From positions 1 through 64,000 of IMG/VR virus record IMGVR_UViG_3300025701_000006: DNA of 64,000 nucleotides, one strand, 5' to 3'. Both the position numbers and the translations under genes were made by a program. How positions within the stretch are numbered: the first letter of the stretch is position 1; every line of letters begins with the position of its first letter. Source of the DNA: a virus. Positions 4,806 through 38,631 of this stretch are shown here, piece by piece. The notes under the pieces were generated by a model. The model did not search any database. It saw only the letters and a program-made list of their open reading frames with translations, and was not told where the DNA came from.

Positions 4806-5510
4806 ATGGCCAGACGTAAAGAAAGAAAATCCCTTCTTAGTGACAACCACTTAACTATGCACGAAATCCAACCAATGACTGAAAATCAGTCAATCTTCTT
4901 CCAGAACTACGAATCTGACAAATCACAAGTATTATTAGGCTACCCAGGAACCGGTAAAACTTTTATGGCTATGAATAAAGCCCTAGAAGAACTTAACGAC
5001 CCTACGTCGCCTTATAAACGCATTGTAATTGTACGATCTGCAGTTCCTACAAGAGATGTTGGTTTTCTTCCAGGTACACTAGCAGAAAAGTCAGCAGTAT
5101 ATGAATTGCCTTATCAATCTATATGCACTGAACTATTTGGTAGAAGTGACGCTTACGAAATAATGAAGAAGCATAGAACTATTGAGTTTATGACTACTTC
5201 TTTTATTAGAGGTATAACACTAGACAGGACTATAGTAATAGTTGATGAATTTCAAAACATGACATCACATGAAGCAGACTCTATTATAACTAGGGTAGGC
5301 GACTATAGTAAGATTATATTCTGTGGCGATATACTACAAAGAGATTTAAACAGAAACTCCGAACGCAACATAGAAATATTTTTAAAAGTCCTTAGAAAAA
5401 TGGATGATGTTTTTGACTTCACCTATTTTGATGAAGACGATATTGTTAGAAGCGGACTTGTCGCTAGCTATATTAGAGCTAAGCACAAAGAGTACCCAGA
5501 CGGGTATTAA
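4806..5510 (+). CDS. phoH: PhoH-family ATPase
   Basis: A P-loop ATPase with Walker A GYPGTGKT (residues 45-52) and Walker B IVIVDEFQNM, followed by the PhoH-typical FCGDILQ segment. PhoH proteins are widespread in marine phages. Bacterial homologues are linked to phosphate stress and RNA metabolism, but the phage role is unresolved. At 234 aa it is a compact core without extra domains. It has its own upstream gap with a possible -10 and is followed by a strong terminator, so it may end a transcript that begins upstream. Confidence 0.93.
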   Translation: MARRKERKSLLSDNHLTMHEIQPMTENQSIFFQNYESDKSQVLLGYPGTGKTFMAMNKALEELNDPTSPYKRIVIVRSAVPTRDVGFLPGTLAEKSAVYELPYQSICTELFGRSDAYEIMKKHRTIEFMTTSFIRGITLDRTIVIVDEFQNMTSHEADSIITRVGDYSKIIFCGDILQRDLNRNSERNIEIFLKVLRKMDDVFDFTYFDEDDIVRSGLVASYIRAKHKEYPDGY

Positions 5511-18271: not shown

Positions 18272-18946
18272 ATGGAAACAATAGAGCCTATCCAAGTATC
18301 TTATAAACATACTAATGATGCTAAAACCGCTAAGGCCTGGCTAGATAGTCTACCAGATCTTTTTGCTGCTGACTTTGAAGCAGCTATTAGGTATACTAAA
18401 AAAGATATAGAAGAAGCTAAAGCTATTGTTGAAGATGAAAGCATACCTAAAATAGAAAGAATAGAAGCTAGTTCAATAGCAACTGCTACAGCATTAGGTC
18501 ATCCTTACCACTGTACCATTACACATTGCAGTATTGCGTACACGGAAAAAGACGCTTATGTCTTTATTATCGATGCACAACCTATAGCAGATGTTGTTCT
18601 TAACTTTCTAACATCTACTGTAAGAACGCAAGTATGGCATAATTACAGCTATGATGGCAGGCTAATAAGGTATTACGCAGACAAAGACGCTATTAATGTT
18701 GAAGATAGCCAAATATTTGCAAAAACTCTAATAAACCATGTAGATACTTTTAAAGCTAAAACAAGACTAAAAGATTTAATGGGGGAGTTCTACGGAGACT
18801 GGGCAATATCTGCTGATAACTTTACATTAGAACAGCAATATGAAGAACATGTACTGCATTATGCAGCTATAGACGCATGCGCAACGTTTAAACTATGGGA
18901 ATACCTAAATGATTTCGCAAAAGAAAACAAAATACAGTCCGCATGA
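18272..18946 (+). CDS. 3'-5' exonuclease domain of family A DNA polymerase (separate gene)
   Basis: A DnaQ/Pol I-type proofreading domain. FAADFEA gives Exo I (D-x-E), WHNYSYDGRLI gives Exo II, and HYAAIDACATF gives the Exo III Y-x3-D. It ends at TGA 18944-18946, 38 bases after the polymerase gene has begun in another frame. In N4 and T7 the two domains form one protein. Here they would act as two subunits unless a +1 shift in the overlap joins them. Confidence 0.85.
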   Translation: METIEPIQVSYKHTNDAKTAKAWLDSLPDLFAADFEAAIRYTKKDIEEAKAIVEDESIPKIERIEASSIATATALGHPYHCTITHCSIAYTEKDAYVFIIDAQPIADVVLNFLTSTVRTQVWHNYSYDGRLIRYYADKDAINVEDSQIFAKTLINHVDTFKAKTRLKDLMGEFYGDWAISADNFTLEQQYEEHVLHYAAIDACATFKLWEYLNDFAKENKIQSA

Positions 18947-20744
18947 CCAGTTACCGGCACCAGAACCTAAAACAATAGAGTATGACGTAGATCACTTCTA
19001 CAAAAACACTGCTAGATACCTAGTTAAAGACACTGTGCGGGTTATGGACAACGGTTTAGCCATTGACTTGAACAAAGTTATTGAGCTAGAAGAAGTACTC
19101 GTAGAACAGCTTACAGAGGTAGATAAAGAACTAGCGTCTAATAAGTATATCGAACAGTATTTAAACCAACGCTATGCTACGCAAATAAAAGAGTATAAAA
19201 AAGACCGTAAATCTAAAATGCGTAATGCAGACTACTATTTAAAGGAATTTAAACCTTTTGATATGATGCATAGAAGTTACTTTATGGAAGAGTACGCAAG
19301 TGCTAAAGGCTGGAGTAAGCCCGAAGAAAAGCTTCCTACTGGTGTTAGTAAATGGCCTGCAAACCTTGTTAAAAAGTATGCAGCTACTAATAGGCTATTA
19401 AAATCTTTACTAGATAAGACTATACCACTAAATACACCAGCAGCTGTTAAAGCTATGGAAAAACTAGCCAAAGACAAAGCTGATATGTACAATCAAAAGT
19501 ACTTGGATCAGGTAAAGTCTCCTGATGTAAAATATCCAGTATTTAATCCGGCTTCTTCTACACAAAAACAAGAATTGTTTAAGATGCTAGGCTTTGTGTC
19601 ACAAAAAGTTTCTAAAAAAACAGGTTTACCTTCCTGGGACAGAGACGAAATAGAAAATATTAATAAATCTACTAGAGATGAGGATATAAAATCTTTTACT
19701 CAAAGTTTTATAGACCATTCTTTTGCTGCGATAGTAAAAAACAACTTTATTGCTGCTTTTTACAAATACACAGTACAAGGCAGATTATACGGCCAGTACA
19801 AACTTTTAGGTGCTAAAACAGGACGTTACACAAGCAGTAACCCTAACATGTTAAACATGCCTTCAACTAAATCTAGGTTTGCTAAACCTGTTAAAAAATG
19901 TTTTGTAGCACCAGAAGGTAAAATCATACTAGCTGCAGATTACAGTGCTTTGGAAGACAGAGTAATTGCATCTTTATCTAGGGATGTTAACAAATGTGAT
20001 ATATTCTTAAAGAATCTTGATGGTCATTCACTAAATGCACTAGGCTATTTTCTGCCAAGAATTGAAAACCTTATGGATATCACAGGAGATACACCTACTG
20101 ACGCTATTAATTTTAAAAAACTAGTGGACAGTGGTGATTCCGTAGCAGATGCAATTAGACAAGAATCTAAAGGTCCTACCTTTGGCTTGGCGTATGGTGC
20201 TTACCCACCTAAAATTGCTGCTACTCTAAAAATATCTTTAGAAGAAGCACAAGAAATCTTTGATAATTATCACAATGTACTGTATCCTGGTATAACAGAT
20301 TATAGACAAAACTACGTACTACCTACCGCAAAAACACAAGGTCAATTACATCTAGGATTAGGGTTTACCCTAAAAACAGACGACCCTGAAAAAGATATAC
20401 GTACGCTAGCTAACGCTACATGCCAGTTTTGGTCTATACTCACAGCATTAGTAATAAATAAAATGCATGTACTTATCGATCAGATAGGATACCAAGAAGA
20501 CGTAAAAGTAATATCAACTATATATGATTCAATATATTTTGAAGTTACAAACGACCCTAAAATAATTAAATGGGTTAACGATAATCTCATAGCTACTATG
20601 CTAGTAGATTTTATGGAAGATCAGACAGTTGTAAATGAAGCAGAAAGCGACATAGGTTTTAACTGGGCAGAAATGCTTACTATACCTAATAATGCTACTG
20701 TTGAATGTATTGAAGACACTTTAAAGAAACTACAAGAATTGTAG
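18909..20744 (+). CDS. Family A DNA polymerase, polymerase domain
   Basis: Motif A is AADYSALEDR (catalytic Asp ~344), motif B is R-x3-K-x6-F/Y in RQESKGPTFGLAYGA (Arg ~417, Lys ~421), and motif C is STIYDSIYF (Asp ~540). The usual motif C HDE is replaced by YDS, though the catalytic Asp remains. The first ~230 residues are a helical region linking to where the exonuclease would be. The ATG at 18909 is the earliest start because TAA lies immediately upstream in this frame; GGGAA gives a weak ribosome site. No 5'-3' exonuclease domain is present. Confidence 0.93.
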   Translation: MISQKKTKYSPHDQLPAPEPKTIEYDVDHFYKNTARYLVKDTVRVMDNGLAIDLNKVIELEEVLVEQLTEVDKELASNKYIEQYLNQRYATQIKEYKKDRKSKMRNADYYLKEFKPFDMMHRSYFMEEYASAKGWSKPEEKLPTGVSKWPANLVKKYAATNRLLKSLLDKTIPLNTPAAVKAMEKLAKDKADMYNQKYLDQVKSPDVKYPVFNPASSTQKQELFKMLGFVSQKVSKKTGLPSWDRDEIENINKSTRDEDIKSFTQSFIDHSFAAIVKNNFIAAFYKYTVQGRLYGQYKLLGAKTGRYTSSNPNMLNMPSTKSRFAKPVKKCFVAPEGKIILAADYSALEDRVIASLSRDVNKCDIFLKNLDGHSLNALGYFLPRIENLMDITGDTPTDAINFKKLVDSGDSVADAIRQESKGPTFGLAYGAYPPKIAATLKISLEEAQEIFDNYHNVLYPGITDYRQNYVLPTAKTQGQLHLGLGFTLKTDDPEKDIRTLANATCQFWSILTALVINKMHVLIDQIGYQEDVKVISTIYDSIYFEVTNDPKIIKWVNDNLIATMLVDFMEDQTVVNEAESDIGFNWAEMLTIPNNATVECIEDTLKKLQEL

Positions 20745-20757
20745 AATTTATTCTAAA

Positions 20758-20818
20758 GAGCAGGGTGCCTTCCTACCTTTTTAGCCTTTCCGGTGGGGTG
20801 TGCTCGCTAATCACCGGA
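20758..20818 (+). repeat. Pseudoknot unit 1
   Basis: GAGCA 20758-20762 can pair with loop TGCTC 20801-20805. GGG 20763-20765 can pair with CCT 20785-20787 (one wobble). The hairpin TCCGGTG 20789-20795 / CACCGGA 20812-20818 has 7 bp. The loop is 16 nt, two longer than in the other units. Confidence 0.8.
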
Positions 20819-20840
20819 CTTAATTTACCTGGTGGTAACT

Positions 20841-20897
20841 TAGCAAGGGGGGAGACCTCCTATTAGCCTTACTAATGGGGTGCTAGATAAACATTAG
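20841..20897 (+). repeat. Pseudoknot unit 2
   Basis: TAGCA 20841-20845 can pair with loop TGCTA 20881-20885, a compensatory change relative to units 1 and 3. AGG 20846-20848 can pair with CCT 20867-20869. The hairpin CTAATG 20872-20877 / CATTAG 20892-20897 has 6 bp. The linker holds GGAG-AC-CTCC; its CTCCTA (20857-20862) is complementary to TAGGAG in the rusA ribosome site. Confidence 0.8.
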
Positions 20898-20899
20898 AC

Positions 20900-20958
20900 G
20901 AGCAAGGTTCATAATACCTATTCCGCCTTCCCAGTGGGGTGCTCAATAATCACTGGGA
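20900..20958 (+). repeat. Pseudoknot unit 3
   Basis: GAGCA 20900-20904 can pair with loop TGCTC 20940-20944. AGG 20905-20907 can pair with CCT 20926-20928. The hairpin TCCCAGTG 20929-20936 / CACTGGGA 20951-20958 has 8 bp. It ends 7 bases before the rusA Shine-Dalgarno. Confidence 0.8.
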
Positions 20959-20965
20959 CTAATTT

Positions 20966-20980
20966 AGGAGCTATACCATT
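20966..20980 (+). promoter_or_regulatory. rusA ribosome site with ATT start codon
   Basis: AGGAG (20966-20970) is followed after 7 bases by ATT (20978-20980), which opens the RusA reading frame. An in-frame TAA at 20960-20962 and the absence of ATG, GTG or TTG between it and codon 25 leave ATT as the only start that keeps the conserved RusA N-terminus. Confidence 0.75.
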
Positions 20981-21388
20981 AAAATAGAATTACCAATTTA
21001 CTGGACACAAGAGTTCAAGACTAAAAACGACAAAACCGTTTTAGTAGGTATGAACTGGTACCGTAATGCGTTTTACCACGCACAAAACAAAATGAAAAAA
21101 GACTTCCAAGAACTAGTATATAAACAGCTAGGTGACGAAGTTATTAGTGATCAATTTACCTTAGATATAGGTATATATTACAAAAACGCTTCTTGCGATG
21201 GTGCTAACATAGCAGCACTAATAGAAAAATTTACCCTAGATGCGCTTCAAGAGAACAAAACTGTGGTTAACGACAACGTTAAATACCATGTAGGTAGTTC
21301 CTGGAAAATATTAGGGCAAGATAAAAATAATCCGAGATGCGAAATCTCGATAACAAAAAAATTAACAGAGGAGACTTTAAGTGCTTGA
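20978..21388 (+). CDS. RusA-like Holliday junction resolvase (ATT start)
   Basis: RusA-family resolvases cut four-way DNA junctions and act with phage recombination and packaging. From ATT the protein reads (M)KIELPIYWTQEFKT, then KTVLVGMNWYRNA, a strong match to phage RusA-type N-termini, giving 136 aa. Beginning at the internal ATG (21050) would remove these 24 conserved residues. The later DGANIAALIEKFTLDALQ and NDN segments carry the acidic residues expected for metal binding. It overlaps nrdA by 8 bases. AUU is a rare start codon, best known from infC, where it allows regulated initiation. Confidence 0.78.
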   Translation: MKIELPIYWTQEFKTKNDKTVLVGMNWYRNAFYHAQNKMKKDFQELVYKQLGDEVISDQFTLDIGIYYKNASCDGANIAALIEKFTLDALQENKTVVNDNVKYHVGSSWKILGQDKNNPRCEISITKKLTEETLSA

Positions 21389-23108
21389 TTTTGCAAAAGA
21401 GCTACTTAAGAAACATTATTGTAAGCCCAATGAATCTATTCATGAAGCTTTTAAACGAGCTAGTGACTGCTACGCTACTGACCAAGAGCAAAGTGAACGA
21501 ATACAAGACTATCTTAAGAAAGAATGGTTTATGTTTAGTTCGCCTATTCTAAGTAACGCACCAGCAAAAGGTGAAAAAACTAAAGGCTTGCCTATTAGTT
21601 GTTTTTTAACCTATGTACCAGACTCTATCAAAGGTCTATGCGATCATACTACTGAAGAACGATACTTATCGGTCAAAGGTGGTGGCGTAGGCGGACACTG
21701 GTCTGATGTAAGATCTATCTCTGATAAGACCCCAGGCGTTAATGGCTTTTTGCATACCGTCGATGCAGATATGGTGGCCTATCGTCAAGGTAAAACTCGT
21801 AGAGGCAGCTATGCTGCATACTTGGATGTTAGTCATCCAGAGATCATCGAGTTTATTAAAATGCGTACTCCTACTGGAGATCTTAACCGTAAGAACCTAA
21901 ACCTTCATCACGGTGTAAATATTACTGACGCTTTTCTTGAAGCAGTCAATGATGATTTAGAATGGTCTCTAATAGATACACATAATGGGGAAGTAGTAGA
22001 AACTGTACGTGCTCGTCATATATGGGAAGAGATTTTAACAACTCGATTCCGTACTGGCGAACCATACATTAACTACCTAGACGAAGCAAATCGCAAAATG
22101 CACCCAGCGTTACAGAACCTAGGTCTTAAGATCCACGGCAGTAACCTGTGTAACGAAATCCATTTACCAACAAACAAAGATCGTTCAGCAGTATGCTGTT
22201 TATCATCTGTCAACCTAGCTAAGTTTGACGAATGGAAAGACAATCCTGTGTTTATTGGTGACCTTATCGAATTGTTAGACAATGTTTTACAGTTCTTTAT
22301 TGACCATGCTCCAGACGCTTTAGAAAAAACACGATACTCCGCTATCCGTGAACGTTCTTTAGGCCTAGGTGCTATGGGTTTCCATGACTATTTAATGCAG
22401 CACTCTATTCCTTTTGAAAGTAGTTTAGCAATATCTATTAACAAAAAGATGTTTAGCAGTATTAAAAAGCAAGCAATAGCGAAGACTAAGGAACTAGCTG
22501 TGCTACGTGGCGAAGCTCCAGACGCTGTAGGTTACGGTGTACGAAACACTCATTTATTAGCTATTGCCCCCAACGCAAATAGCTCAATTATCTTAGGTGT
22601 TAGCCCATCTATCGAACCAAGAGCATCTAACTGCTACACCCACAAAACACGAGTTGGCAGCTTCTTAGTCAAAAACCCTTCACTAATCGCTGTACTAGAT
22701 ACATATAATCGAAATACAGAAGATACGTGGAAATCTATCATGAAAAGTGATGGCTCTGTACAGCACTTAGACTTTTTATCTGCAGAAGAAAAAGACGTAT
22801 TTAAAACTGCGTTCGAGATTGACCAAAACTGGGTAGTCGAAATGGCTCGTAGCCGTCAAGAATACCTATGCCAAGGACAATCTGTTAATATCTTTTTCCC
22901 TGCCGGTGCTACTAAAGGCTATGTAAATGCTGTGCACAGACGTGCTTTTAGACCTGCTGATGATGTAGGTGAACCACTGAAAGGTGTGTATTACTTACGT
23001 ACAGAAGCAAGTAAAAAGACTGAAAAGATTAACGTTAAAGTAGAGCGTAATGCTCTTAAAGATGGCGTACAAGGCTCTTTAGACGCCTGTATCGCATGTG
23101 AGGGATAA
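21381..23108 (+). CDS. nrdA: Class I ribonucleotide reductase, large subunit
   Basis: The catalytic subunit that makes deoxynucleotides from ribonucleoside diphosphates. SCFLTY holds the first redox Cys, SNLCNEI gives the Asn/Cys/Glu radical triad (near residue 255), VCCLSSVNL holds the partner Cys, and the tail ends CIACEG with the thioredoxin-facing Cys pair. At 575 aa it is shorter than E. coli NrdA because the N-terminal ATP cone is missing, so overall activity inhibition by dATP is probably lost. The start is GTG with GAGGAG upstream, overlapping rusA. Confidence 0.95.
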   Translation: MLDFAKELLKKHYCKPNESIHEAFKRASDCYATDQEQSERIQDYLKKEWFMFSSPILSNAPAKGEKTKGLPISCFLTYVPDSIKGLCDHTTEERYLSVKGGGVGGHWSDVRSISDKTPGVNGFLHTVDADMVAYRQGKTRRGSYAAYLDVSHPEIIEFIKMRTPTGDLNRKNLNLHHGVNITDAFLEAVNDDLEWSLIDTHNGEVVETVRARHIWEEILTTRFRTGEPYINYLDEANRKMHPALQNLGLKIHGSNLCNEIHLPTNKDRSAVCCLSSVNLAKFDEWKDNPVFIGDLIELLDNVLQFFIDHAPDALEKTRYSAIRERSLGLGAMGFHDYLMQHSIPFESSLAISINKKMFSSIKKQAIAKTKELAVLRGEAPDAVGYGVRNTHLLAIAPNANSSIILGVSPSIEPRASNCYTHKTRVGSFLVKNPSLIAVLDTYNRNTEDTWKSIMKSDGSVQHLDFLSAEEKDVFKTAFEIDQNWVVEMARSRQEYLCQGQSVNIFFPAGATKGYVNAVHRRAFRPADDVGEPLKGVYYLRTEASKKTEKINVKVERNALKDGVQGSLDACIACEG

Positions 23109-23112
23109 GATT

Positions 23113-24042
23113 ATGTTACAAGAATTAAGCAGAACGTATAAGCCATTACGATATCCACAAGCTGAAGAGTATCGCCTTCAGTCTGAAGACATCCATTGGG
23201 TTGTAAAAGAAGTCGAAATGAGTAAAGATTTAGAAGATTATAAATCTGCTTCCCCAGAGGAAAAAGAATTTATTAAAAACATTTTATCTATCTTTACACA
23301 ATCAGACTTTAATGTTGCCGCAAACTATTTGCCTTTAATCAATAAGATTAAAAACAATGAAGTACGTGGCATGCTGACTAGTTTTATGGCGCGTGAGTTT
23401 ATCCACCAAGAAGGTTACGCACACCTTAACGAATCTTTAGGTTTTCCAGATAGTTACTACTCTGATTTTTTAAAACATCAAGAAACCTTAGAAAAAGACT
23501 CTTACATGGCAACTACCACGTTTGAAAGCTTCGGCTTAAAACTGGCTAAAGGTATTCTGCTTGAAGGTGTTAGCCTCTTTGGTGCTTTTGTATTACTTAA
23601 GAACTATGAGCGAGTAGGAAAGTACCTAGGTACCTGTACAATTAATGAGTGGTCTTTACGTGATGAATCTCTTCACGTTGAAGGCAACGCATGGCTGTTT
23701 CGTACCTGGTGCCAAGAAAACCCGAAAGAAGTGAATGACTCTTTTAAAAAGCACATTTACACGATGGCTCGTGAAATTGTAGAACTTGAAAAAAAGTTTA
23801 TTGACTTTGCATACGGTGACTATCAACCTCCTAAGTTAGACAAAGAAGATGTAAAAAAGTATATCGAGTTTATAACCGATAGACGTTTATTACAACTAGG
23901 CCTTAAGCCGAATTTTGGTTGTTCTACTAATCCACTACCCTGGATGGATGAATTAAACAACGGAAGTTCGCATGCCAACTTCTTCGAAAAACGTGTAACT
24001 GATTACGCAGTTGCAGGGATGGAAGGTGATTTTACTTACTAA
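23113..24042 (+). CDS. nrdB: Class I ribonucleotide reductase, small (radical) subunit
   Basis: A diiron-type subunit. Its ligands are visible in QSDFNVA (Asp), REFIHQEGYAHL (Glu, His and the radical Tyr three residues later), LEGVSLF (Glu) and DESLHVEG (Glu, His). The conserved Tyr implies a class Ia-type tyrosyl radical. I chose the ATG at 23113 (MLQELSRTYKP) over an in-frame ATG at 23098 inside nrdA because GAGGGA is well spaced and family members begin at this point. A terminator follows, so rusA-nrdA-nrdB form a unit. Confidence 0.94.
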   Translation: MLQELSRTYKPLRYPQAEEYRLQSEDIHWVVKEVEMSKDLEDYKSASPEEKEFIKNILSIFTQSDFNVAANYLPLINKIKNNEVRGMLTSFMAREFIHQEGYAHLNESLGFPDSYYSDFLKHQETLEKDSYMATTTFESFGLKLAKGILLEGVSLFGAFVLLKNYERVGKYLGTCTINEWSLRDESLHVEGNAWLFRTWCQENPKEVNDSFKKHIYTMAREIVELEKKFIDFAYGDYQPPKLDKEDVKKYIEFITDRRLLQLGLKPNFGCSTNPLPWMDELNNGSSHANFFEKRVTDYAVAGMEGDFTY

Positions 24043-29000: not shown

Positions 29001-30266
29001 TATTACGTCTGAAAAGAATGTTTTAATGGCCTCAAACATACCTGTTTTTGTTTTATCTTTTAGTTTTACCCCTTCAAGTAGCCCCATAAACCCGGGATTA
29101 GTTAAAGAGTACGCTATAAACTCATCATTAGACGTTTCGCTATTAAATATGTAATCGTATCTGTCTTTAGCTTCCTTTGACGTTAGAGCAGGCTCTGCAC
29201 GTTTTATGTCTTGCCATGTGATGTTTTTACGTGCCTGTGCCATCAAAAAGTTAAGGCGCTCTTTTAACGACGTAGCCTCTCTGCCTTCACTTCTAAGAGC
29301 CCAAGCTGTCATTGTATGTACAGTTTCATGCATATACACTTCAGCGTTGCTCATATTAGAGCTAGTGAGTTTACTGGTGTTTAACAACATATGCTCTTTG
29401 TCTATATCAACCCATCCAGCAGCATGTTCTTGATTTTCATTAATAAAAATATTCATTCTTCTAAAGAAATGCTCATGCATGTTATCTAGTAAGCTGTTAT
29501 ACCAATAATACATCTTGTCAGTAGTAGGTTTACCTCCTATAGCGTGTAGATCTGCTAGCATATTCTTCATATCTTCTACACTACCATGTACGTAATTTTT
29601 CTTTAGGCTGCTTTTTTCATACCTAAAAGTTCCCTCATCAAACTGCTCGCTCGATTTTAAGATGTCCTCTGCACTAGCATCACTTTCTACAATTTTTCTC
29701 ATACTAGCTAAATGACTGTTGGCACTCGTAGCTAGCTCTTCTCTACGCAGCTCTCTACTGACCCCTGAAGTAGTGCTGGCTATAACGGACCCAATACTTT
29801 TAAACTGAGGTATATACATTTTTATTTGACGTTCTTTAGATGCCCTAGATTCGTTTCTATCTAAATCAAAAGTATAAGTCTGTATATTTTCTTTACCTTT
29901 CCTAGTAACTTTAAGTTCTATTACTTCTATATTATTGGCATCTTTAGTTACTAAAGCGGACTTAACTACGTAATCAGCTCTTTCAGTACCTTCAGTAGGG
30001 CGTTTGCTTACAGCAGCCTTAAACACTTGCCCTAGCTGTTGCTTAGCTAGAACAGTACTTACGTCGTTAGTAAGCTCTGCTCGTGCAAACTCGTCTAACG
30101 CTGTAAAATCTTTTTCATTTAACAATTTAAGGGCTTTTTTATTTCTAGCTATAGACTCAGATAGTACTTCACCTTCTTTAGTGACTAGCATAGTTTTTTC
30201 TAGCTTTTCAGCTCTTGTTATACTAGCCTTAAAGGCTTTTTCTACTGTATTTATATCACAAACCAT
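26028..30266 (-). CDS. Giant virion-associated protein with HETVH metallopeptidase motif (1412 aa)
   Basis: It begins at the ATG that overlaps the stop of the RNA polymerase gene (TAATG). A zincin signature HETVH (residues ~313-317) is followed ~70 residues later by NDEFIAYSLTNPGF, matching the H-E-x-x-H...E pattern seen in very large phage polyvalent proteins. A hydrophobic stretch near ILLKMPVILIVNIISNVLYAL and a long coiled coil (about KKQKQVEAKKVEL) follow. It is the last late gene. Its size equals the C-terminal packaging region of N4 virion RNA polymerase (about 1400 aa), so it may be that region as a separate polypeptide, or an independent injected protease. Confidence 0.65.
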   Translation of the reverse strand: MVCDINTVEKAFKASITRAEKLEKTMLVTKEGEVLSESIARNKKALKLLNEKDFTALDEFARAELTNDVSTVLAKQQLGQVFKAAVSKRPTEGTERADYVVKSALVTKDANNIEVIELKVTRKGKENIQTYTFDLDRNESRASKERQIKMYIPQFKSIGSVIASTTSGVSRELRREELATSANSHLASMRKIVESDASAEDILKSSEQFDEGTFRYEKSSLKKNYVHGSVEDMKNMLADLHAIGGKPTTDKMYYWYNSLLDNMHEHFFRRMNIFINENQEHAAGWVDIDKEHMLLNTSKLTSSNMSNAEVYMHETVHTMTAWALRSEGREATSLKERLNFLMAQARKNITWQDIKRAEPALTSKEAKDRYDYIFNSETSNDEFIAYSLTNPGFMGLLEGVKLKDKTKTGMFEAIKTFFSDVINAVMGNYTFKNKNESLRKEVHTLAFKLAEINNTADKELTDNPNLLTQVSDLIDRTDGRIEEFLDGAASKVFDTENKVEIPQNMNHIQKVLFFSKFFAKAIYNNYYRDAAGAFFTGYGIKPDNSIREIVRSILPKVTEEISGPVELLGLKTNNIDLYRNTHVGNVATAITNAFSKELNDPQKIALTEILLESNASSLFDKNKNYGKGYSTDQVSKLIGDHAYRVKAINRLEKRIKKLDPKRGNWLVAQAKGLGEFMVTGEGHEAQNTSSRNIAKGYLTSDILPTNKELEALIEEMASLSALEEQKGLSKQLVVDLINNEESGVRTVVNLYEAFKQGSEKALFKNDSSHMIEGYIKQLFDDGIETKYALVSEQEELEKQGFKLASVFDGNDISGAEPIGFYISDTYSRPERQSGVVGLGNPGSRGMTLREARYAQFQDSKKHAQAWFEADRNQLNAKAIRINEELYNGKSFKDIPKGSVPVLDALGNVVDYRNMMNKQDKNKFLKQNKSIVDVLSKTSGTLIDKVAREKQNDNALKLIKQNLRDVYDNPNSKNNLMEYSLISAESSDPEMRKLFNQLPSSFQRFINSREDKSLPIPSMLMDQYFGYSHARFTDAYGVNKLPSTIKRIINIFEAYFVDLVKVAKGNILLKMPVILIVNIISNVLYALNTGMGLTEIVGAYANSFKDVRKFMKKQKQVEAKKVELNALVAEYSTTRFKNNEEISDYNDKATRLRNEIKRIEKEMSESDIKELFDLGMYQAVIEDVNMYKLGDTNKISDGMDKLLGKVPSLIKTPLQWLYLSKETAWYKVNQEVLQMSDLIARDVMNRKQKIIEEQQADGKRDLPLAYRKQINRMGKADRRRVLGKAEREQFLATAKTSRHTQLLNSFVNYNLPNSRGEEYLNRIGVLMFTKYVKRIQHVITQAGSQHAVRTAITLAGAGIGLDLEMIQDQSLLIKAGDEYGVFGLTPIYTPVDIITTVAMPPLINLGMDVFGTK

Positions 30267-33200
30267 TATTTACACCCTTCAATTTTTTCTAATGCACTAA
30301 CTAGGCTATCTACGTCCGAGACACTAGATAACTCATCTACAATCTTACTCTGTACTGATGATTTTACCATAGATAACCCATCAATTACTTTATTAATAGC
30401 TTCAACTACTGTTTTATTTGTTATTTTTGTTTTTCTATTGTTGTAGTATGCTATTAACTTATCAGCTTTTTCAGGGTTTTGAATAATATCCTCTATAACA
30501 TTATCTGCGTTTACATTATCTACACCTAAACGTTTATTTAGTTCTTTAAGCAGGGCCCTAGGAGCGGCCTCAAACACTTTTTTTAGTTCTGCAGCTTTTT
30601 CTGCAGACCTATCTACAGGTACGTCTAATTTAACGGCTTTGTACATATTCTTAAGCGCGTTTTTGTAGCTAAGATCAGCAGAAGTCATACCTTTTTGGTA
30701 CACCGCTCCAGGTGTTCCAACTAGATTTCCGTAGTAAGCACCTTCCATTAAACCATTTTCCCCATACCATAATTCCCTAGCTTTTTTAATGCCGGAAATT
30801 TCGGTTTTTAGGTTGCCTAATACACTTTTAGCCAAAGCAGGAAATGCTTCTTTAACCTTAGGGTCTGCGGCTTTTAGTCCTAATGCTGTAACTTTTTCAA
30901 AATCTTTACTAAAGGTCGTACTACTTATTGTTTTTTCTAACCTATTTGCAAACTCCTGCAGCGCCTCTGCTAGTACATAGTTTTTCTTGCTGTTAATATC
31001 GCTAGGGTTACCTTCAGAGTTAATGGTTTCCATACCTTTTTGGTAAGCAAACCCTGCGTTGTCAGACTGGTTTAAAGGAGCAATTATTGCATCGTGTATT
31101 AAAGTTAAAGCACGTAACTGCAAATCGTTCATCATTAAGCTTATCTCAGCGCCATCAATAGCATGAAACGGTAATACAGAACCAGAACTTATTGCTTCTT
31201 CTAGGTACCTAACTAAAGGCGTTACAGTCCTAGTTTTAGTATTTTTGCCTTCTCCAAGCATAGTCTGTGGTTTTTTACGGCTTAGCTCAATCTCATTAGG
31301 AGATCTAGTGGACGTAGTGACTACAGCTATGACTGCTTTTTTCTCTTTAGCACCGGTAAGCGGGCCTACAAGGTATGGAAAGTCGTCCCATAACTCTTCT
31401 AGTACTTTTGCATGATCTTCTAAAGTAACTACGTTATTAGGGTTTCTTTTTTGAATATCCTTAAGCTTGTCTACACGTTTTTTATCAAAAATACGAAATG
31501 CTACTTTAAACCCATCGTTAATAGCGTTTTGTACTTTAATAAAAGGCTTAAAGTTTGTTTCAAAAACAGTTTTTACGGCTTCTCCGTATGTAGCACTTAC
31601 AGTAAACTCTAACAGCTGCTCTAAATTTCTAGCAGTATTAGTGCCTTTACGTGTTTGCGAAATAACCAATGGTACTTTAAGTTTAATATCTTTTAGTCTA
31701 AAGTCTTTTAGGGCTTGCTGGAGCTCTAATATATTTTTTATCTTTTTATCGCTTTTTGGGTATAAAAACTCTCCTCCTGCTGCCAGTAACTTTTCCGCTG
31801 TTTCTTTTGCAGTTAAGTCATTTTCAAAATCACTAGTCGCAATACCTTTTGCTATATCTTTAGCAACAGAAATACTTAAGTTTTTGACTATTCTTCCTAC
31901 GCTAGCACTGTAGTTGAATATCATAAACGGGTCTTTAAATAACGCACGTAATTTTTTGTCTATACTACTAGCAACACCTGAAGATCCAATAGTTTCACCT
32001 CCAGGGAGTAACTGTTTAATAGCTTCAAAGACTTTACTTCCAGACCTGCCTTCACCTCTTGATACCGTCAAAGAAGTACTGCCCGACGTTACTTCTTCAT
32101 TAACTAGGGTGATAGTGTCCGTAGCCATATTCTCATATGAATCTAAAAATCCTATCTCTCCTTTTTTTCCTGCAGCTAAAATATCCGCTGCAGACATACC
32201 TTGTGAAGGGTCAAATGGAATACCATCCCCTTTAAAACTAGACTGCAGTAGTACATCTTGATACGATTTAGTAATAATACCTACTCGGGCAAAATGAGAA
32301 TGCATATCATCAAGTATAGGCATCTGTTGTATTTTATTGGCAAAACCACTAGTTAATGAGTCAAACTCTAACGACAGTGCAGAAGTAACTTTACCATTAC
32401 CAGTAAGGGCATCTTGTACTTTTTCTAAAAAATCTAGTGCTTGTAATGCGTGGGAAAGATGTTCCGCTTCAAGTTCATACTCAATACCTTTCATATCAGC
32501 AGGATCTGCATCACTGCTACTGTCTGTATTAGCGTCACCAGTAACTTCGGTATTTAAGGTTTCAATTGTAAACTTGCCTGTAGACATAATAGACTTTTTA
32601 GCTTCTGCTATTTCTGCTTTATTCATACTAAGCACAGCATTACCATAGTCTATAATATCTTTAACATCCATCTTATCTACGCCCTTACCTAGGGCTTGTC
32701 CTAGAGCTAATCTCACAGTAAAGCTTTGATCTGCGTCCAAGGGGTCACTTACACCTTCTACGTTAAACTCTAAACCACCTTCTGTATTTGTATTTACATC
32801 ATAAGTAAGTCTATGCAGTTTAGGTACGATAAAAAATCTATGCAGTTTATCTGTTTGAGGTTGTGTAGTATTTGAATCTAGCATAAACCTATTGTTACTT
32901 GCATAAAAGTAAGGATAGTGCATAGATGGATCTAAGTTACCTACTCTATCCATTTTTTCTCTAAGTAATCTAAGCTCATCAATGCTTTTTTCTATGTCTC
33001 TATTTTTAGCTTCTTGTACTTCTTTCTCATCGTAAAACAGGCTATCAAATTTATCACTTGTTAAATCAATAAAGCCTAGTAACGTTTTGATGTTGCTTTC
33101 ATCTGCATCTACTGCTTCTAAGAACTCGTCAACAAGGTTAACATCGATACCATACTCGGTTTCCATAGCAAGCTTCATAGTCTCTTTAGCTTCCTCAGGA

Positions 33201-36200
33201 ACAGTTATACCTGCTATATCGTTACGAACCTCACTAACAGCTTTGTTGATACGATCTTTTGTAAGAGGAGAAAAAGAAGGCTCTTTACGCTCTGTAGTAG
33301 CCTCAGGAAACCCTTTTACTGCTCCTTCGTACTTTTCTACAAAAGCAGTTACTTCTTCTGTAAGAGCGTTATTAGTAAAGTTACCCTGACGTACCGGTCT
33401 ATCTTTCAGATGAATAAAGAAAGTTTTAGTTTCAATTTCTCTAACTTCTCCATCTTTAAATAACCTAGCTATGTCATTTGAACTAGGGCTAGTACTGTCC
33501 AATATTCCTTGTTCTTGTGCTATTAATACTGCCATGTTGCCAAGGTCAGCAAGTAATGCCTCGTACTCTGCTGAAGATGTAGTGCTGTTTTTCTTTTTAG
33601 ACAGACCAAGTTGCTTTAAGGTAGCTTTGCCCAAAGAGTTAGCTACAGTTTTAAGAAGTGCTCCGTTATCCCTAGCAAAATCACGCATTTCTTTAGTTAC
33701 TTCATGTGGCTGGAGGCCTAGCATGGTAGCTATATCTTCGTCAGACTTATAACCTCTAGACACCTTTGCTTTATCATTAGCAGCCATTTCGCCTATAGCT
33801 AGGTACATAGCAGCTAAAACTTCTTTGTTAGGTTTGCCTTTGTTGTTAAACACTAAACCTCTAGCAGGGGAGTTATGCAAAAACAAGTTACCAGGTAAGA
33901 ATTTACCATTTACTCTTATATCAGTTTGGTCTGATAGCTCTGCTTCACTAACTTTTGCTAAACTTTTATCTGCTGCAGTTACAAATTTATTTGCTGCTGT
34001 TTTTATGGCGTAAGGTAAGTTATCAAAAGATAGAGAATTAAGCACAGTAGTTTTGTCTGCTTTTACAAGCTTACCTGCATCCTGAACTACTTTTCTTGTA
34101 CCTAAGAATATATGTTCATTACCGTAGAATATAGTACCTCTACCTTTATTAGCGGCTTCATATCCTTCTATTGCTTTATCAGACAAAGGATCCCTAGATA
34201 GTTTTACTACAACTTCACCAGTCTTGGATTTTAAAAATAGTATCTCATACAGATCTTTTTTGTTTTTAGAAAAGGACTTCTCACCTAGTATACTGTTAAT
34301 AACCGATTTACTTGTATTGCCTATACTTTCTAATAACCTACTAACAGCTTTTTCTTTTTTATCAAAAGAAAGGTCTTGATCTATTATACCTTGCCAATCT
34401 TTTAAAGCTTGCTTACCTGCTTTTCCTTTTTCCTCTTGAGCTTCAATGTACTTGGTTACACCGGCCTCTAGCGCTTTATCTTTAAATGCGATTGGGTCTG
34501 GATCTGTAGCTCCAAGAACTGCTTCTGCTTCATTTTTTACATCGTCTATAAAACGACGTTCTAAAAAAGATGTTAGCCTATCACTTTTACTACTAAAGCT
34601 GTTGTCTTTTACTGTATCGAATAAAGTAGAATACTCTTTTTTAGCAGCAGCTTTGGCTTCATCAGTAAGGGCTTCGCCTGTAACAGAGTCGATAGATGTC
34701 TCTATAGATCTATAAAGAGTCACCAATGCCTCTTTGTTATCCTCACGAAACTGCGCAGCAGTATTGCTTTTCTCTAGTTTTTCTTTGTAATTACGTAAAG
34801 CTTTTTTATTATCCGCAGTTTCTTTAATTAAGATATGGCGAGACTTATCTTTTAGAATAGCGTAACCTTTATCCTTTATTTTTTTAAGCAACGCTTCTTT
34901 ACCTAGTGCTACTTCTTTGGTAAGTTTTCCTTGAACTAGGTCAGAGTCTAGTACAATAGTTGCTCCTGCTTCCATAGCAGCCACTAAGGAAGCTTCACCT
35001 TCTACACCTAAGTCAGGAACTTTAAAACCTTTTTTAATACTTTTAGTACCTACACTATTTATAAGTACTACGTCATCAGCAGAAAACTCTTCATTATTTA
35101 TTAAAAAACTATTAGATTTATAATAGTCACCTTTAAGAGCCCATTTAGCTGTAGTATCTTTTCCTAATATTACTTTGTTTACTTCAGATACTTTTTTGTT
35201 TAGGTCATTAAGAACTTTACTAACGCTACTTAAGTAACTGGTGTCTGCTTTACGTGCAGTTTTACTGCGTCCTTCTTTTACAGGTATAGTAATACTTCCA
35301 GACATAACAGAAATATCATCAGTTTTAAAACTAGCATTGCTGCTGATAGTCTGCATTTCTCTTTTTATATCTTTTAAGTATACAGATTTCCTAGCTATTA
35401 AATCTTTAGCACCCTTAATGTTAGGTACCATTTTACCGTTTTTAAACTCGACAGTAATTAGATAAGGGTCATCATACTTTTTAGTCTTATTATTGTACTT
35501 GTTGTACTCAGTTTTGACATATTGGGTTTTTTTAGACGTTAACGGTTTTTTATTTAAATCTGCTGCTACCCTTTTAGCTTCTTCTATACCTCTATTTAAA
35601 GATGTAACTGAAGCGCTAACAGAACTATTAATCCTAGATAAAGCTACCATTTCACTGTTTATAGCTTTTTTGTTGGGATTAGAGCTTTCTAGTAGCCCTT
35701 TAAGCCTAGATATCCTAGCTGCGTAGCCAGTACTTCCTTTAGTAGCTTCATCTTCGACCGTAGTATAACTTTTTACTAAACTGTCATAACGCTCTACACT
35801 TACATTGTTACGGGTAGCGAAGCTTTTCATTGTAGTAGTAAATGCTTCATCGTAAGACCTGCCACTACCTAGTAGTGTATTAACTATGCGCTCCGCGTCT
35901 ACACTACGAGTGTAATCTGTGTATTCCTTTTGCTCTTCATCAAGGTTAGGAGCTGACCCTAATACATTTCCACTTGTAGTAGTGCTATTTTCTACCGCAG
36001 TAAAATTCTCTATACTATTATTTCTAACAAAATCTTGAATAACATCATAAGTCTCTTCTAATGTCTGACTTGTTTTTCCGGTAAGTGCAGACTCTAAAGC
36101 AACTAATTCAGGAGCAACCGAATTTGGCTCTATAGAACTATTGCTGTAACTTCCTGATTTAAACGTTGATACTATGCTATCAAAAGCTTTTTCTGCGGTA

Positions 36201-38554
36201 ACATCATTACCGTCACCTAACACTTTTCCTAAATCTGTAATTGCGCTTTTAACGTTAGCAGGGACAGAATTAATAGTGTCTGCTTTAGTCTTTTCTTCTA
36301 GAGACTGTCGTATCGACTTACGAACTATTTTACCTGTAAGTTGGGTATTTTTGTTTTCACGAACAAACTGTTCAAGTCCGTCTAAAATTCTGTTGTATAC
36401 AGCTTCTCCAGCCTCTTTTTGTTCTTTAGGTGAAGAGTCAATAACGTATTTAGTAGCGTTAATTTCATCTATATCATCTAGTAAAGCACCTACATTGTTT
36501 GCGGTAACCCCTTCTTTAGCAGTAGTATTTGCCACTCTAGTTAATAAAGCTTTGTAAGCATTTTTGTCTGATACTATAGTATCTTCTGATAACGTTTCGT
36601 TAACGTCAGTATTAGGCAGTGTGCCTGGTACATTACCTTTAGCGGTGTTGCCAGTAATAGGCTGATTACCTTGCCCAAACATACCAAACCCAGTACGTAA
36701 AGAACCTACAGCCTCAAACTGCCCAGCACCACCTGCACCTAGTAAAGCAGCAATACCTGCTTCTGTTGTGTTTCTCTCATCTGTAATAAAGTCAGTAAAC
36801 GTTTCAACATCTTTAAATAGTTCTGTACCAAACCTAGTGTTAAATAGCTCCATCATTGTTTGTGAGTATTCTTGAGCAGCTTCTACTGTGGCTAATGCAC
36901 CTGACTTAATTACTCCTTTACCCATCATAAGAGTAGCATTTGCAAATTGTTTATTGGTTAGGTCTTTTATAGCAGGGGCTATAGAGGTAAGGATCCCTGG
37001 ATTCTTTATTATATTTATATTAACAAATTTATCTAGGTTCTGATTAAGCAGTTGTACACCTAAACTTCTTGCAAAGTAACTAGCTTTATCCTCACTATTT
37101 AATTCATTCCCATTATTATTCTTTACAAACTGTTCGTACTGATTGTTTACGTTACCTATAGCTGCTGTTAATTGTCCAGACTGGCTTACTAAAAGACTTT
37201 TAGCTCCATCTGTACTAGCCAGAGCTTTTAATTTTTCTGCTCTGCCTTGTCCCTTGGTGATTTTATTAGTATTTACAGCTTCTTCAATACTTTTAACAGT
37301 TTTACTATATTTTGTACCTGCACCTAGCAGGTTTAAAAACTTACCTGGACTAATCCAAGCTAAAAGAGCACCTAGGCTAGTCCCAAGCAATTCTGGGGTA
37401 GTGTAAATTTCTCCTAGTGCGCTAAACGCAGCACCTACTTTGTCTATCGTAGATGCTTCTTTATCTACCAATACGTCGTAGTAACCACCAACACTTTCGA
37501 CGGTTTCTTGTAGATTTTTTGGGTCATAACCAAAGAAACTGTTTACAGCAGAAGCTTTACTTTCTTGGTCACCAAGGTCATAAAGCCCTGTAAAGTCACC
37601 TAAAGCATCTAAAGGATTTACCGCTAGTTCAGACACAAAAGTAGCGCCAAAGCCTGAAAAAGCATTGCCAACTCTGTTTATGGCCTCTACAACCTTGTTT
37701 GTTTCCATAGTAGGTTCATAGTAACTAGGTTGCTTAAGGTCTGAAGCGTCTGTACTTTCTACAGGTTCAGCACCTCCTCCTTTAACTATTGCCATAGCTT
37801 TATTAAAACCAGCAATGACTTTTTCTTTATCTACTTTTTCAATATCATACGACTGGTTAGCCAAAGATTCTCTATTTATGTAGTACTCACTAGAGCCACT
37901 ACCAAACAGTGCATCTTTTTCTTCTTTGGTTATTGTACGAATACCTTGAGGAGAGTTATAATCGTATAGACCATCTTTTCTGCCTCTAATAACTCTGTTA
38001 TTAAAGTTATTTAAATTTGTGTGGTTTAAGCTTTCAAAAGCCTGTGCGGCGTATTTTTGAAGGTTGTCATCATACCTTTTATCATTTACATCAACACCAG
38101 CGGTACCTGAGCTCCACCCTTGTTCTTTTCCTGCTCTGATTAAGCCTTCTTCTTCCGCTTTCCCAGGAATGTAACGATAGTCAGATGAATTAAACCTGCC
38201 AGAAGATAAGCCAAGCTTTACAGGATCGTAGTTTTCTGGAGTAAAAGCCTGCGCAGGATCTATTGCTTTGCCTTCTTCTTTTACACCGTACATATAAGAT
38301 CTACGGTCATTTCGACTAGAGTCTGGTAAAGAATACCCTTCCCTAACTAAGTCATTTAAAAACCCCATTTCATCTTTAGACCAGTCTTCAGAAATACCCC
38401 AAATCTTGTTCCCATTATTTTCTATGTACCCATCACCTAGGTCCGTGTAAGTACTAGAATCAAGAGACTCAGAGGCATAACTACGCTCTGATAGATTTGC
38501 AATTTTTTCTTCTTTGCTCTTAGAAATACGGGAGAGTTTATCGGTAAATGACAT
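30266..38554 (-). CDS. Virion RNA polymerase (N4 vRNAP-like, 2762 aa)
   Basis: N4-like phages package a single-subunit T7-type RNA polymerase that enters with the DNA and transcribes early genes. The core motifs lie near the C-terminus here. The D-x-x-G-R region is SNNRFMLDSNT (Arg ~1889), motif A is LEFDSLTSGF (Asp ~2065), motif B is RALFKDPFMIFNY (Arg ~2203, Lys ~2207, Tyr ~2215), and motif C is PFHAIDGAEI (Asp ~2467). The R-x3-K-x7-Y spacing equals that of N4 (R666, K670, Y678), and the motif distances are similar. The first ~1700 residues have no domain I can name. I chose the ATG at 38554, preceded by AAGGA, over an ATG at 38596. About 300 residues follow motif C, far fewer than in N4. 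Confidence 0.83.
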   Translation of the reverse strand: MSFTDKLSRISKSKEEKIANLSERSYASESLDSSTYTDLGDGYIENNGNKIWGISEDWSKDEMGFLNDLVREGYSLPDSSRNDRRSYMYGVKEEGKAIDPAQAFTPENYDPVKLGLSSGRFNSSDYRYIPGKAEEEGLIRAGKEQGWSSGTAGVDVNDKRYDDNLQKYAAQAFESLNHTNLNNFNNRVIRGRKDGLYDYNSPQGIRTITKEEKDALFGSGSSEYYINRESLANQSYDIEKVDKEKVIAGFNKAMAIVKGGGAEPVESTDASDLKQPSYYEPTMETNKVVEAINRVGNAFSGFGATFVSELAVNPLDALGDFTGLYDLGDQESKASAVNSFFGYDPKNLQETVESVGGYYDVLVDKEASTIDKVGAAFSALGEIYTTPELLGTSLGALLAWISPGKFLNLLGAGTKYSKTVKSIEEAVNTNKITKGQGRAEKLKALASTDGAKSLLVSQSGQLTAAIGNVNNQYEQFVKNNNGNELNSEDKASYFARSLGVQLLNQNLDKFVNINIIKNPGILTSIAPAIKDLTNKQFANATLMMGKGVIKSGALATVEAAQEYSQTMMELFNTRFGTELFKDVETFTDFITDERNTTEAGIAALLGAGGAGQFEAVGSLRTGFGMFGQGNQPITGNTAKGNVPGTLPNTDVNETLSEDTIVSDKNAYKALLTRVANTTAKEGVTANNVGALLDDIDEINATKYVIDSSPKEQKEAGEAVYNRILDGLEQFVRENKNTQLTGKIVRKSIRQSLEEKTKADTINSVPANVKSAITDLGKVLGDGNDVTAEKAFDSIVSTFKSGSYSNSSIEPNSVAPELVALESALTGKTSQTLEETYDVIQDFVRNNSIENFTAVENSTTTSGNVLGSAPNLDEEQKEYTDYTRSVDAERIVNTLLGSGRSYDEAFTTTMKSFATRNNVSVERYDSLVKSYTTVEDEATKGSTGYAARISRLKGLLESSNPNKKAINSEMVALSRINSSVSASVTSLNRGIEEAKRVAADLNKKPLTSKKTQYVKTEYNKYNNKTKKYDDPYLITVEFKNGKMVPNIKGAKDLIARKSVYLKDIKREMQTISSNASFKTDDISVMSGSITIPVKEGRSKTARKADTSYLSSVSKVLNDLNKKVSEVNKVILGKDTTAKWALKGDYYKSNSFLINNEEFSADDVVLINSVGTKSIKKGFKVPDLGVEGEASLVAAMEAGATIVLDSDLVQGKLTKEVALGKEALLKKIKDKGYAILKDKSRHILIKETADNKKALRNYKEKLEKSNTAAQFREDNKEALVTLYRSIETSIDSVTGEALTDEAKAAAKKEYSTLFDTVKDNSFSSKSDRLTSFLERRFIDDVKNEAEAVLGATDPDPIAFKDKALEAGVTKYIEAQEEKGKAGKQALKDWQGIIDQDLSFDKKEKAVSRLLESIGNTSKSVINSILGEKSFSKNKKDLYEILFLKSKTGEVVVKLSRDPLSDKAIEGYEAANKGRGTIFYGNEHIFLGTRKVVQDAGKLVKADKTTVLNSLSFDNLPYAIKTAANKFVTAADKSLAKVSEAELSDQTDIRVNGKFLPGNLFLHNSPARGLVFNNKGKPNKEVLAAMYLAIGEMAANDKAKVSRGYKSDEDIATMLGLQPHEVTKEMRDFARDNGALLKTVANSLGKATLKQLGLSKKKNSTTSSAEYEALLADLGNMAVLIAQEQGILDSTSPSSNDIARLFKDGEVREIETKTFFIHLKDRPVRQGNFTNNALTEEVTAFVEKYEGAVKGFPEATTERKEPSFSPLTKDRINKAVSEVRNDIAGITVPEEAKETMKLAMETEYGIDVNLVDEFLEAVDADESNIKTLLGFIDLTSDKFDSLFYDEKEVQEAKNRDIEKSIDELRLLREKMDRVGNLDPSMHYPYFYASNNRFMLDSNTTQPQTDKLHRFFIVPKLHRLTYDVNTNTEGGLEFNVEGVSDPLDADQSFTVRLALGQALGKGVDKMDVKDIIDYGNAVLSMNKAEIAEAKKSIMSTGKFTIETLNTEVTGDANTDSSSDADPADMKGIEYELEAEHLSHALQALDFLEKVQDALTGNGKVTSALSLEFDSLTSGFANKIQQMPILDDMHSHFARVGIITKSYQDVLLQSSFKGDGIPFDPSQGMSAADILAAGKKGEIGFLDSYENMATDTITLVNEEVTSGSTSLTVSRGEGRSGSKVFEAIKQLLPGGETIGSSGVASSIDKKLRALFKDPFMIFNYSASVGRIVKNLSISVAKDIAKGIATSDFENDLTAKETAEKLLAAGGEFLYPKSDKKIKNILELQQALKDFRLKDIKLKVPLVISQTRKGTNTARNLEQLLEFTVSATYGEAVKTVFETNFKPFIKVQNAINDGFKVAFRIFDKKRVDKLKDIQKRNPNNVVTLEDHAKVLEELWDDFPYLVGPLTGAKEKKAVIAVVTTSTRSPNEIELSRKKPQTMLGEGKNTKTRTVTPLVRYLEEAISSGSVLPFHAIDGAEISLMMNDLQLRALTLIHDAIIAPLNQSDNAGFAYQKGMETINSEGNPSDINSKKNYVLAEALQEFANRLEKTISSTTFSKDFEKVTALGLKAADPKVKEAFPALAKSVLGNLKTEISGIKKARELWYGENGLMEGAYYGNLVGTPGAVYQKGMTSADLSYKNALKNMYKAVKLDVPVDRSAEKAAELKKVFEAAPRALLKELNKRLGVDNVNADNVIEDIIQNPEKADKLIAYYNNRKTKITNKTVVEAINKVIDGLSMVKSSVQSKIVDELSSVSDVDSLVSALEKIEGCK

Positions 38555-38584
38555 TAAAAAATCCTTAGTAGGTAATCTACAGGT

Positions 38585-38590
38585 ATTATA
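38585..38590 (-). promoter_or_regulatory. Possible -10 element for the RNA polymerase gene
   Basis: The minus strand reads TATAAT immediately downstream of the terminator T tract and 30 bases before the gene start. A -35 hexamer is not evident because its position lies within the terminator stem. It fits late promoters that depend on an activator. Confidence 0.4.
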
Positions 38591-38591
38591 A

Positions 38592-38631
38592 CACAAAAAC
38601 CCCCTAGTTCCATATAGAGACTAAGGGGTTT
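38592..38631 (-). terminator. Rho-independent terminator before the RNA polymerase gene
   Basis: On the minus strand AAACCCCTTAGT and ACTAGGGGGTTT form a 12-bp stem with one G-T pair around an 11-base loop, followed by TTTTTGTG. It ends the virion-protein transcript arriving from 38650 and would lower expression of the giant polymerase, which is needed in only a few copies per virion. Confidence 0.9.

Follow-up and report, generated by a model that had tools for sequence, protein, structure and literature searches.

The question raised by this locus is why three similar short units, each apparently able to form a pseudoknotted RNA, lie between a DNA polymerase gene and a Holliday junction resolvase gene in a viral genome. 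The window analyzed here is a 64-kb part of a 78-kb virus record that encodes an N4-type virion RNA polymerase (phrog_2206) and belongs to an N4-like marine phage. A 2776-aa ORF with no PHROGs match adjoins the virion RNA polymerase (30266-38596, minus strand). The initial annotation had described three tandem, covarying copies of 57-61 nt upstream of rusA, nrdA and nrdB, and the observation as a whole is confirmed: the stems that it quoted are all present, the units measure 61, 57 and 59 nt with start-to-start distances of 83 and 59 nt (Table 1), and a covariance model finds exactly these three in the window (48-69 bits, the next match scoring 6.5 bits). The copies are divergent, however, and do not form perfect tandem repeats, and the loop motif GGGTGCTN attributed to all three is not literally shared, since the loop of unit 1 reads GGG-TG-TGCTC. 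A pattern made of the conserved loop bases, which leaves the pseudoknot stem and the outer P1 pairs open, identifies window units 2 and 3 and has 0 matches in 100 dinucleotide-preserving shuffles.

Table 1. Coordinates in the window of the RNA units, their helices and the adjoining genes (PK, pseudoknot stem).
Feature	Paired segments	Position	Strand	Remarks
Family A DNA polymerase		18909-20744	+	PF00476, E 1.4e-34; stop codon 14 nt before unit 1
RNA unit 1		20758-20818	+	cmsearch 69.3 bits; all helices paired in field parse
Unit 1 P1	GAGCA / TGCTC	20758-20762 / 20801-20805	+	
Unit 1 P2	GGGT / ACCT	20763-20766 / 20775-20778	+	
Unit 1 P3	CCT / GGG	20785-20787 / 20796-20798	+	
Unit 1 PK	TCCGGTG / CACCGGA	20789-20795 / 20812-20818	+	
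RNA unit 2		20841-20897	+	cmsearch 48 bits; all helices paired in field parse
Unit 2 P1	TAGCA / TGCTA	20841-20845 / 20881-20885	+	
Unit 2 P2	AGGGGG / CCTCCT	20846-20851 / 20856-20861	+	
Unit 2 P3	CCT / GGG	20867-20869 / 20878-20880	+	
Unit 2 PK	CTAATG / CATTAG	20872-20877 / 20892-20897	+	
RNA unit 3		20900-20958	+	cmsearch 68.2 bits; all helices paired in field parse
Unit 3 P1	GAGCA / TGCTC	20900-20904 / 20940-20944	+	
Unit 3 P2	AGGT / ACCT	20905-20908 / 20916-20919	+	
Unit 3 P3	CCT / GGG	20926-20928 / 20937-20939	+	
Unit 3 PK	TCCCAGTG / CACTGGGA	20929-20936 / 20951-20958	+	
A+U-rich spacer and Shine-Dalgarno		20959-20977	+	AGGAG at 20966-20970; separates last unit from rusA start
rusA-like Holliday junction resolvase		20978-21388	+	phrog_1682, E 3.8e-32; putative ATT (AUU) start
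nrdA and nrdB, class I ribonucleotide reductase		21381-24042	+	downstream of rusA

The units almost certainly constitute a new family of 55-65 nt RNAs in N4-like phages with one shared fold. Its topology, as shown by covariation, is a three-way junction, in which helix P1 encloses the hairpins P2 and P3 (CCU/GGG), and the loop of P3 pairs with sequence 3' of P1 as a pseudoknot stem of 5-9 bp, the loop that returns across P1 being NNUAAU-like. P1 corresponds to the pairing that the initial annotation took for the pseudoknot. The CCU/GGG helix, overlooked in the initial annotation, makes the fold a three-way junction plus pseudoknot; the RGG/CCT pairing recorded there is present, but is only the base of a longer P2 hairpin (AGGT/ACCT in unit 3, AGGGGG/CCTCCT in unit 2), which spans 3-6 bp in the family and takes forms that include AGGC/GCCT, AGGT/ACCT, AGGTG/CACCT and AGGGTA/TACCCT. 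The near-invariant bases of the junction are RGG/CCU, CCU/GGG and the UAA of the return loop. An HDV-like topology was rejected for this RNA on the ground of helix order.

Comparison with other viral genomes places the element in a restricted group of phages. In IMG/VR, the records of which are fragments, the loop pattern matched 72 contigs. Those matches that keep P1 complete and have, at the expected distance, a pseudoknot stem of 6 or more pairs stand apart as a group, all members of which are relatives of the window phage. After widening through polymerase, RusA and ligase searches and covariance models R1 and R2 (E-values from a short calibration being rough), the final set comprises 19 distinct units from 16 phage types (the L085 unit differs from the L084 unit by one base). 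The cultured Alteromonas phages AD45-P1 to P4 carry the element in a stretch that is unannotated there (at NC_021532 85502-85561 in AD45-P1), and BLAST of a unit in phage and plasmid collections returned the AD45 phages only, the plasmid matches being due to chance. Each genome has one element locus, usually with a single copy; tandem copies occur in only 3 of the 16 phage types (three units in the window and two in each of two others), so that cooperativity, as suggested in the initial annotation, is not a general feature. No element was found in distant N4-like relatives (polymerase identity of 62% or less) or in most RusA-bearing relatives, the exceptions being L094, L102 and the L104/L136 genome. 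In GTDB, an exact-pattern scan of one genome per species, by which divergent members would be missed, gave 45 matches, none clearly combining P1, P2 and the pseudoknot stem; the best scored 21.8 bits by model and has an incomplete P1 in place. Rfam 15 has no match over the units at E-values up to 10, nor any in six relatives at E-values up to 0.5, and at the gathering threshold the whole window contains two tRNAs only. The view that the RNA fits no described class thus holds for Rfam, and no description of it was found in the open-access literature.

P1, P2, the 3-bp P3 and the pseudoknot stem are all fully paired in 19/19 distinct units (field parse), which upholds the proposal that covarying hairpin and pseudoknot reflect a conserved RNA fold; the covariance-model search for homologs that had been suggested as a check yielded relatives that keep paired substitutions. 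In alignment A5, pairing in P1 is 100%, and four of its five pairs show double changes, as do six of the seven pairs of the pseudoknot stem; P3 shows one compensatory change (CCT/GGG to CGT/GCG in L090b). Over the whole structure 98.2% of cells are paired, versus a shuffled mean of 88.1%, and 11 pairs have double changes, versus a shuffled mean of 3.9, neither value being equaled in any of 500 shuffles, a control that ignores the relatedness of the phages. When the partner is slid by one column, pairing falls to 36-50%. P1 occurs as GAGCA/TGCTC, GGGCA/TGCCC, TAGCA/TGCTA, TGGCA/TGCCA, GAGTA/TACTC and GAACA/TGTTC, and G-U pairs are tolerated in the stems. In the polymerase tree, many forks of which are unresolved, the GGGCA/TGCCC type is carried by L086, which branches within the GAGCA phages, and also by L088 and L090; because this type recurs across the tree, the P1 changes are not a single inherited event. 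RNAfold predicts the three-way junction from units 2 and 3, and favors other folds for unit 1 and the 5' part of L094, so that single-sequence energies are not strong support.

Every copy is located on the sense strand of the next gene, which argues for a role in cis and, on the orientation check that had been proposed, against a DNA element. In most relatives 5-89 nt separate the polymerase stop codon from the unit downstream of it, but the polymerase is not the upstream neighbor in L094, L102 and L136. L094 has two genes between the polymerase and the unit, the one directly upstream of the unit encoding 202 aa, and the unit lies 23 nt before the TTG start of rusA, which no ribonucleotide reductase (RNR) gene follows. 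In L102 and the L104/L136 genome, the unit is preceded by an SSB gene (phrog_743) and followed, after 20-24 nt, by the ATG of a gene for an ATP-dependent DNA ligase (phrog_114, an assignment tested on L136), and these two distant phages (L102, L136) have no RNR within the locus examined. The SSB gene of the window (phrog_743) is ~5 kb upstream of the RNA units. Downstream of rusA, the window has a class I RNR, L005 another type of class I, and L006 and L079 the AdoCbl-dependent RTPR, an exchange in place of class I NrdAB types and RTPR (class II) among close relatives at one locus. A tie of the element to the polymerase or to RNR was rejected on the contexts in L094, L102 and L136. What stands of the initial interpretation is therefore a conserved, covarying, pseudoknotted cis-RNA, with support for its placement before rusA; the link to nrdA and nrdB or to a nucleotide metabolite lacks support, because the element is kept where the RNR class is swapped or RNR is absent (L094), and where ligase follows instead.

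Of the 10 cases measured that have no inserted cassette, 9 have 16-24 nt between the last pseudoknot stem and the rusA or ligase start codon, and this gap is 62-83% A+T with a Shine-Dalgarno sequence. The exception is AD45, with a gap of 61 nt; in AD45-P1 (L093, ~5407-5467), an extra hairpin, AAATCCTCC CTAG TGGAGGATTT, between the unit and rusA accounts for it. The apparent rusA start is ATT (AUU) in the window (20978-20980) and in the close relative L083 (5407), with the Shine-Dalgarno AGGAG 7 nt upstream and ATG, GTG and TTG not near; in the window, none of these three is nearer the Shine-Dalgarno than the putative ATT. Elsewhere rusA begins with TTG (L094) or ATG (the others), and the rare start codon may contribute to control of the gene that the RNA precedes. 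L084-L087 and L089 have a DUF5856-type cassette between the unit and rusA, which is moron-like, with a TATAAT-like -10 promoter and in several cases a terminator-like hairpin, and is inserted directly after the RNA unit, so that several hundred nt lie between unit and rusA; L079 and L088 have an endonuclease VII-like gene between the unit and rusA. A possible second structured element, found in three contigs only and without an Rfam match, is present upstream of the unit in L084 (5325-5398), L085 and L087 (5304-5377), and consists of GTAAACCTGAGAGAG...TAACAGTTG enclosed by a stem that varies between phages (ACCACAGG/CCTGTGGT versus CACAACA/TGTTGTG).

The element is a real conserved RNA that probably controls the next gene, and action in cis on the downstream start is favored, if not strongly. 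The upstream gene is not fixed, because the polymerase gene, the 202-aa gene (L094) or the SSB gene (L102, L136) may precede the RNA. Since the RNA precedes genes for unrelated proteins, RusA and ligase, control by the product of the gene that comes next is unlikely, and a shared factor, of the phages or the host, is the more economical assumption. The preferred reading, a tentative one to which a probability of about 0.45 is assigned, is that of a protein-type translational operator read by a shared trans factor. The pseudoknot stem of the last unit ends 7-13 nt ahead of the Shine-Dalgarno sequence that serves the next DNA-processing gene, which is rusA, or ligase in the distant phages. A trans factor common to the phages or supplied by the host, with phage SSB as the first candidate, would bind the knot and extend over, or clamp, the A+U-rich ribosome-binding region, keeping levels of resolvase or ligase down until the factor was titrated by ssDNA or by intermediates of recombination; extra tandem units would raise affinity. 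Sequestration of the Shine-Dalgarno by the P2 loop was rejected, complementarity between that loop and the leader being no better than shuffled. Against the operator, the cassette or endonuclease VII-like gene separates the RNA from rusA in L084-L087, L089 and L088, which rules out a position of the RNA at the ribosome-binding site of rusA in L084-L089.

The nearest functional analog is the operator of T4 gene 32, where binding of SSB nucleates at a knot and then spreads along a leader rich in A+U (PMC3014915, PMC535899). As in gene 32 of T4, T2 and RB69, a pseudoknot precedes the ribosome-binding site of a phage gene for DNA metabolism, and an A+U-rich stretch runs into that site (PMC3014915, PMC535899). 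In contrast, the T4 knot is a ~28-nt, two-stem fold 67 nt upstream of the AUG that controls the SSB gene itself, whereas the new RNA is a 55-65 nt junction plus pseudoknot with four helices, 16-24 nt upstream, sometimes in tandem, that precedes rusA or ligase. Because size, fold and target gene differ, the new RNA is not filed as a member of that class, to which it is unrelated in fold (sequences were compared via Rfam only). The E. coli rpsO (S15) operator is also a pseudoknot just upstream of its gene (PMC3014915), but it serves ribosomal-protein autoregulation, and the new RNA has no match to a leader in Rfam.

The strongest rival to the operator is a 3'-end or intercistronic stabilizer, in which the knot would stop 3'-5' exonucleases or mark a site of processing. 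It would thereby protect the mRNA of the upstream gene, polymerase or SSB, and set different levels of expression within the operon. This role fits the position almost as well: in many phages the unit starts 5-22 nt past the upstream stop codon, which also weighs against the operator, and where a promoter-bearing cassette has been inserted behind the unit, the unit has remained next to the upstream gene. It is nevertheless unlikely, given that the upstream gene varies (polymerase, 202-aa gene, SSB), that a stabilizer would not be expected to conserve a distance of 16-24 nt from the start codon, and that a simple hairpin would suffice without two interleaved covarying stems. Compact pseudoknots also serve as riboswitch aptamers, the SAM-II, preQ1 and glutamine classes being small knotted cis-RNAs before genes. 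A riboswitch that senses a metabolite such as a nucleotide or cofactor, cooperatively through its tandem copies, would account for the compact three-way-junction pseudoknot, its near-invariant junction bases and the cis position of a conserved, structured, aptamer-like RNA. It is rather improbable, however: the new RNA has no Rfam match to those classes, and its targets are recombination and repair enzymes (rusA and ligase, with endonuclease VII-like and DUF5856 genes also downstream) that form no metabolic pathway, while the RNR class is swapped or lost. Moreover, nearly all invariant bases are in helices or in the P1-crossing loop, leaving no obvious unpaired pocket, and no alternative expression-platform pairing was found. 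A phage-specific riboswitch or sensor RNA that would read the state of DNA replication through a nucleotide or second messenger and gate recombination and repair enzymes, cooperatively where tandem, is likewise improbable.

Action on transcription, either as an attenuator or as put-like RNA antitermination on the operon's polymerase, would suit the intercistronic position and the A/U-rich stretch that several units have behind the 3' stem, but few uridines directly follow the stem and there is one locus per genome; an intrinsic terminator was rejected, none being matched at the window units, and this explanation is quite improbable. The tandem pseudoknots, with a copy number that varies between phages, recall the ToxI antitoxins, which are repeated pseudoknots, the one of E. 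coli being an array of repeats with a 25-nt pseudoknot core (PMC8860590), and suggest a trans-acting decoy, an RNA that would be released from the transcript, mimic a type III antitoxin (ToxI-like) or another host RNA, and neutralize a host RNase. ToxI has smaller, short tandem repeats before a toxN-type toxin gene, whereas the new units are 55-65 nt, divergent in sequence, usually single and fixed in position before the start codon of a resolvase or ligase gene, with no toxin and no Rfam match, which makes a decoy very improbable. Location in the replication module of the genome would be consistent with an element that acts as DNA, for instance a replication origin or inverted repeats bound by a protein, but crossing covarying stems have no explanation in DNA, G-U pairs are tolerated and the coding strand is always used, so that this reading is scarcely credible.

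The presence of the element in the cultured Alteromonas phages AD45-P1 to P4 opens it to direct study, and the natural arrays of one, two or three copies provide a ready dose series. A 2010 review of post-transcriptional control in T4 considered the gene 32 knot possibly still the only viral pseudoknot in translational autoregulation (PMC3014915). If the operator is confirmed, a second, unrelated knot, supported by covariation and placed before recombination and ligation genes of N4-like phages, would mean that such operators arose more than once.
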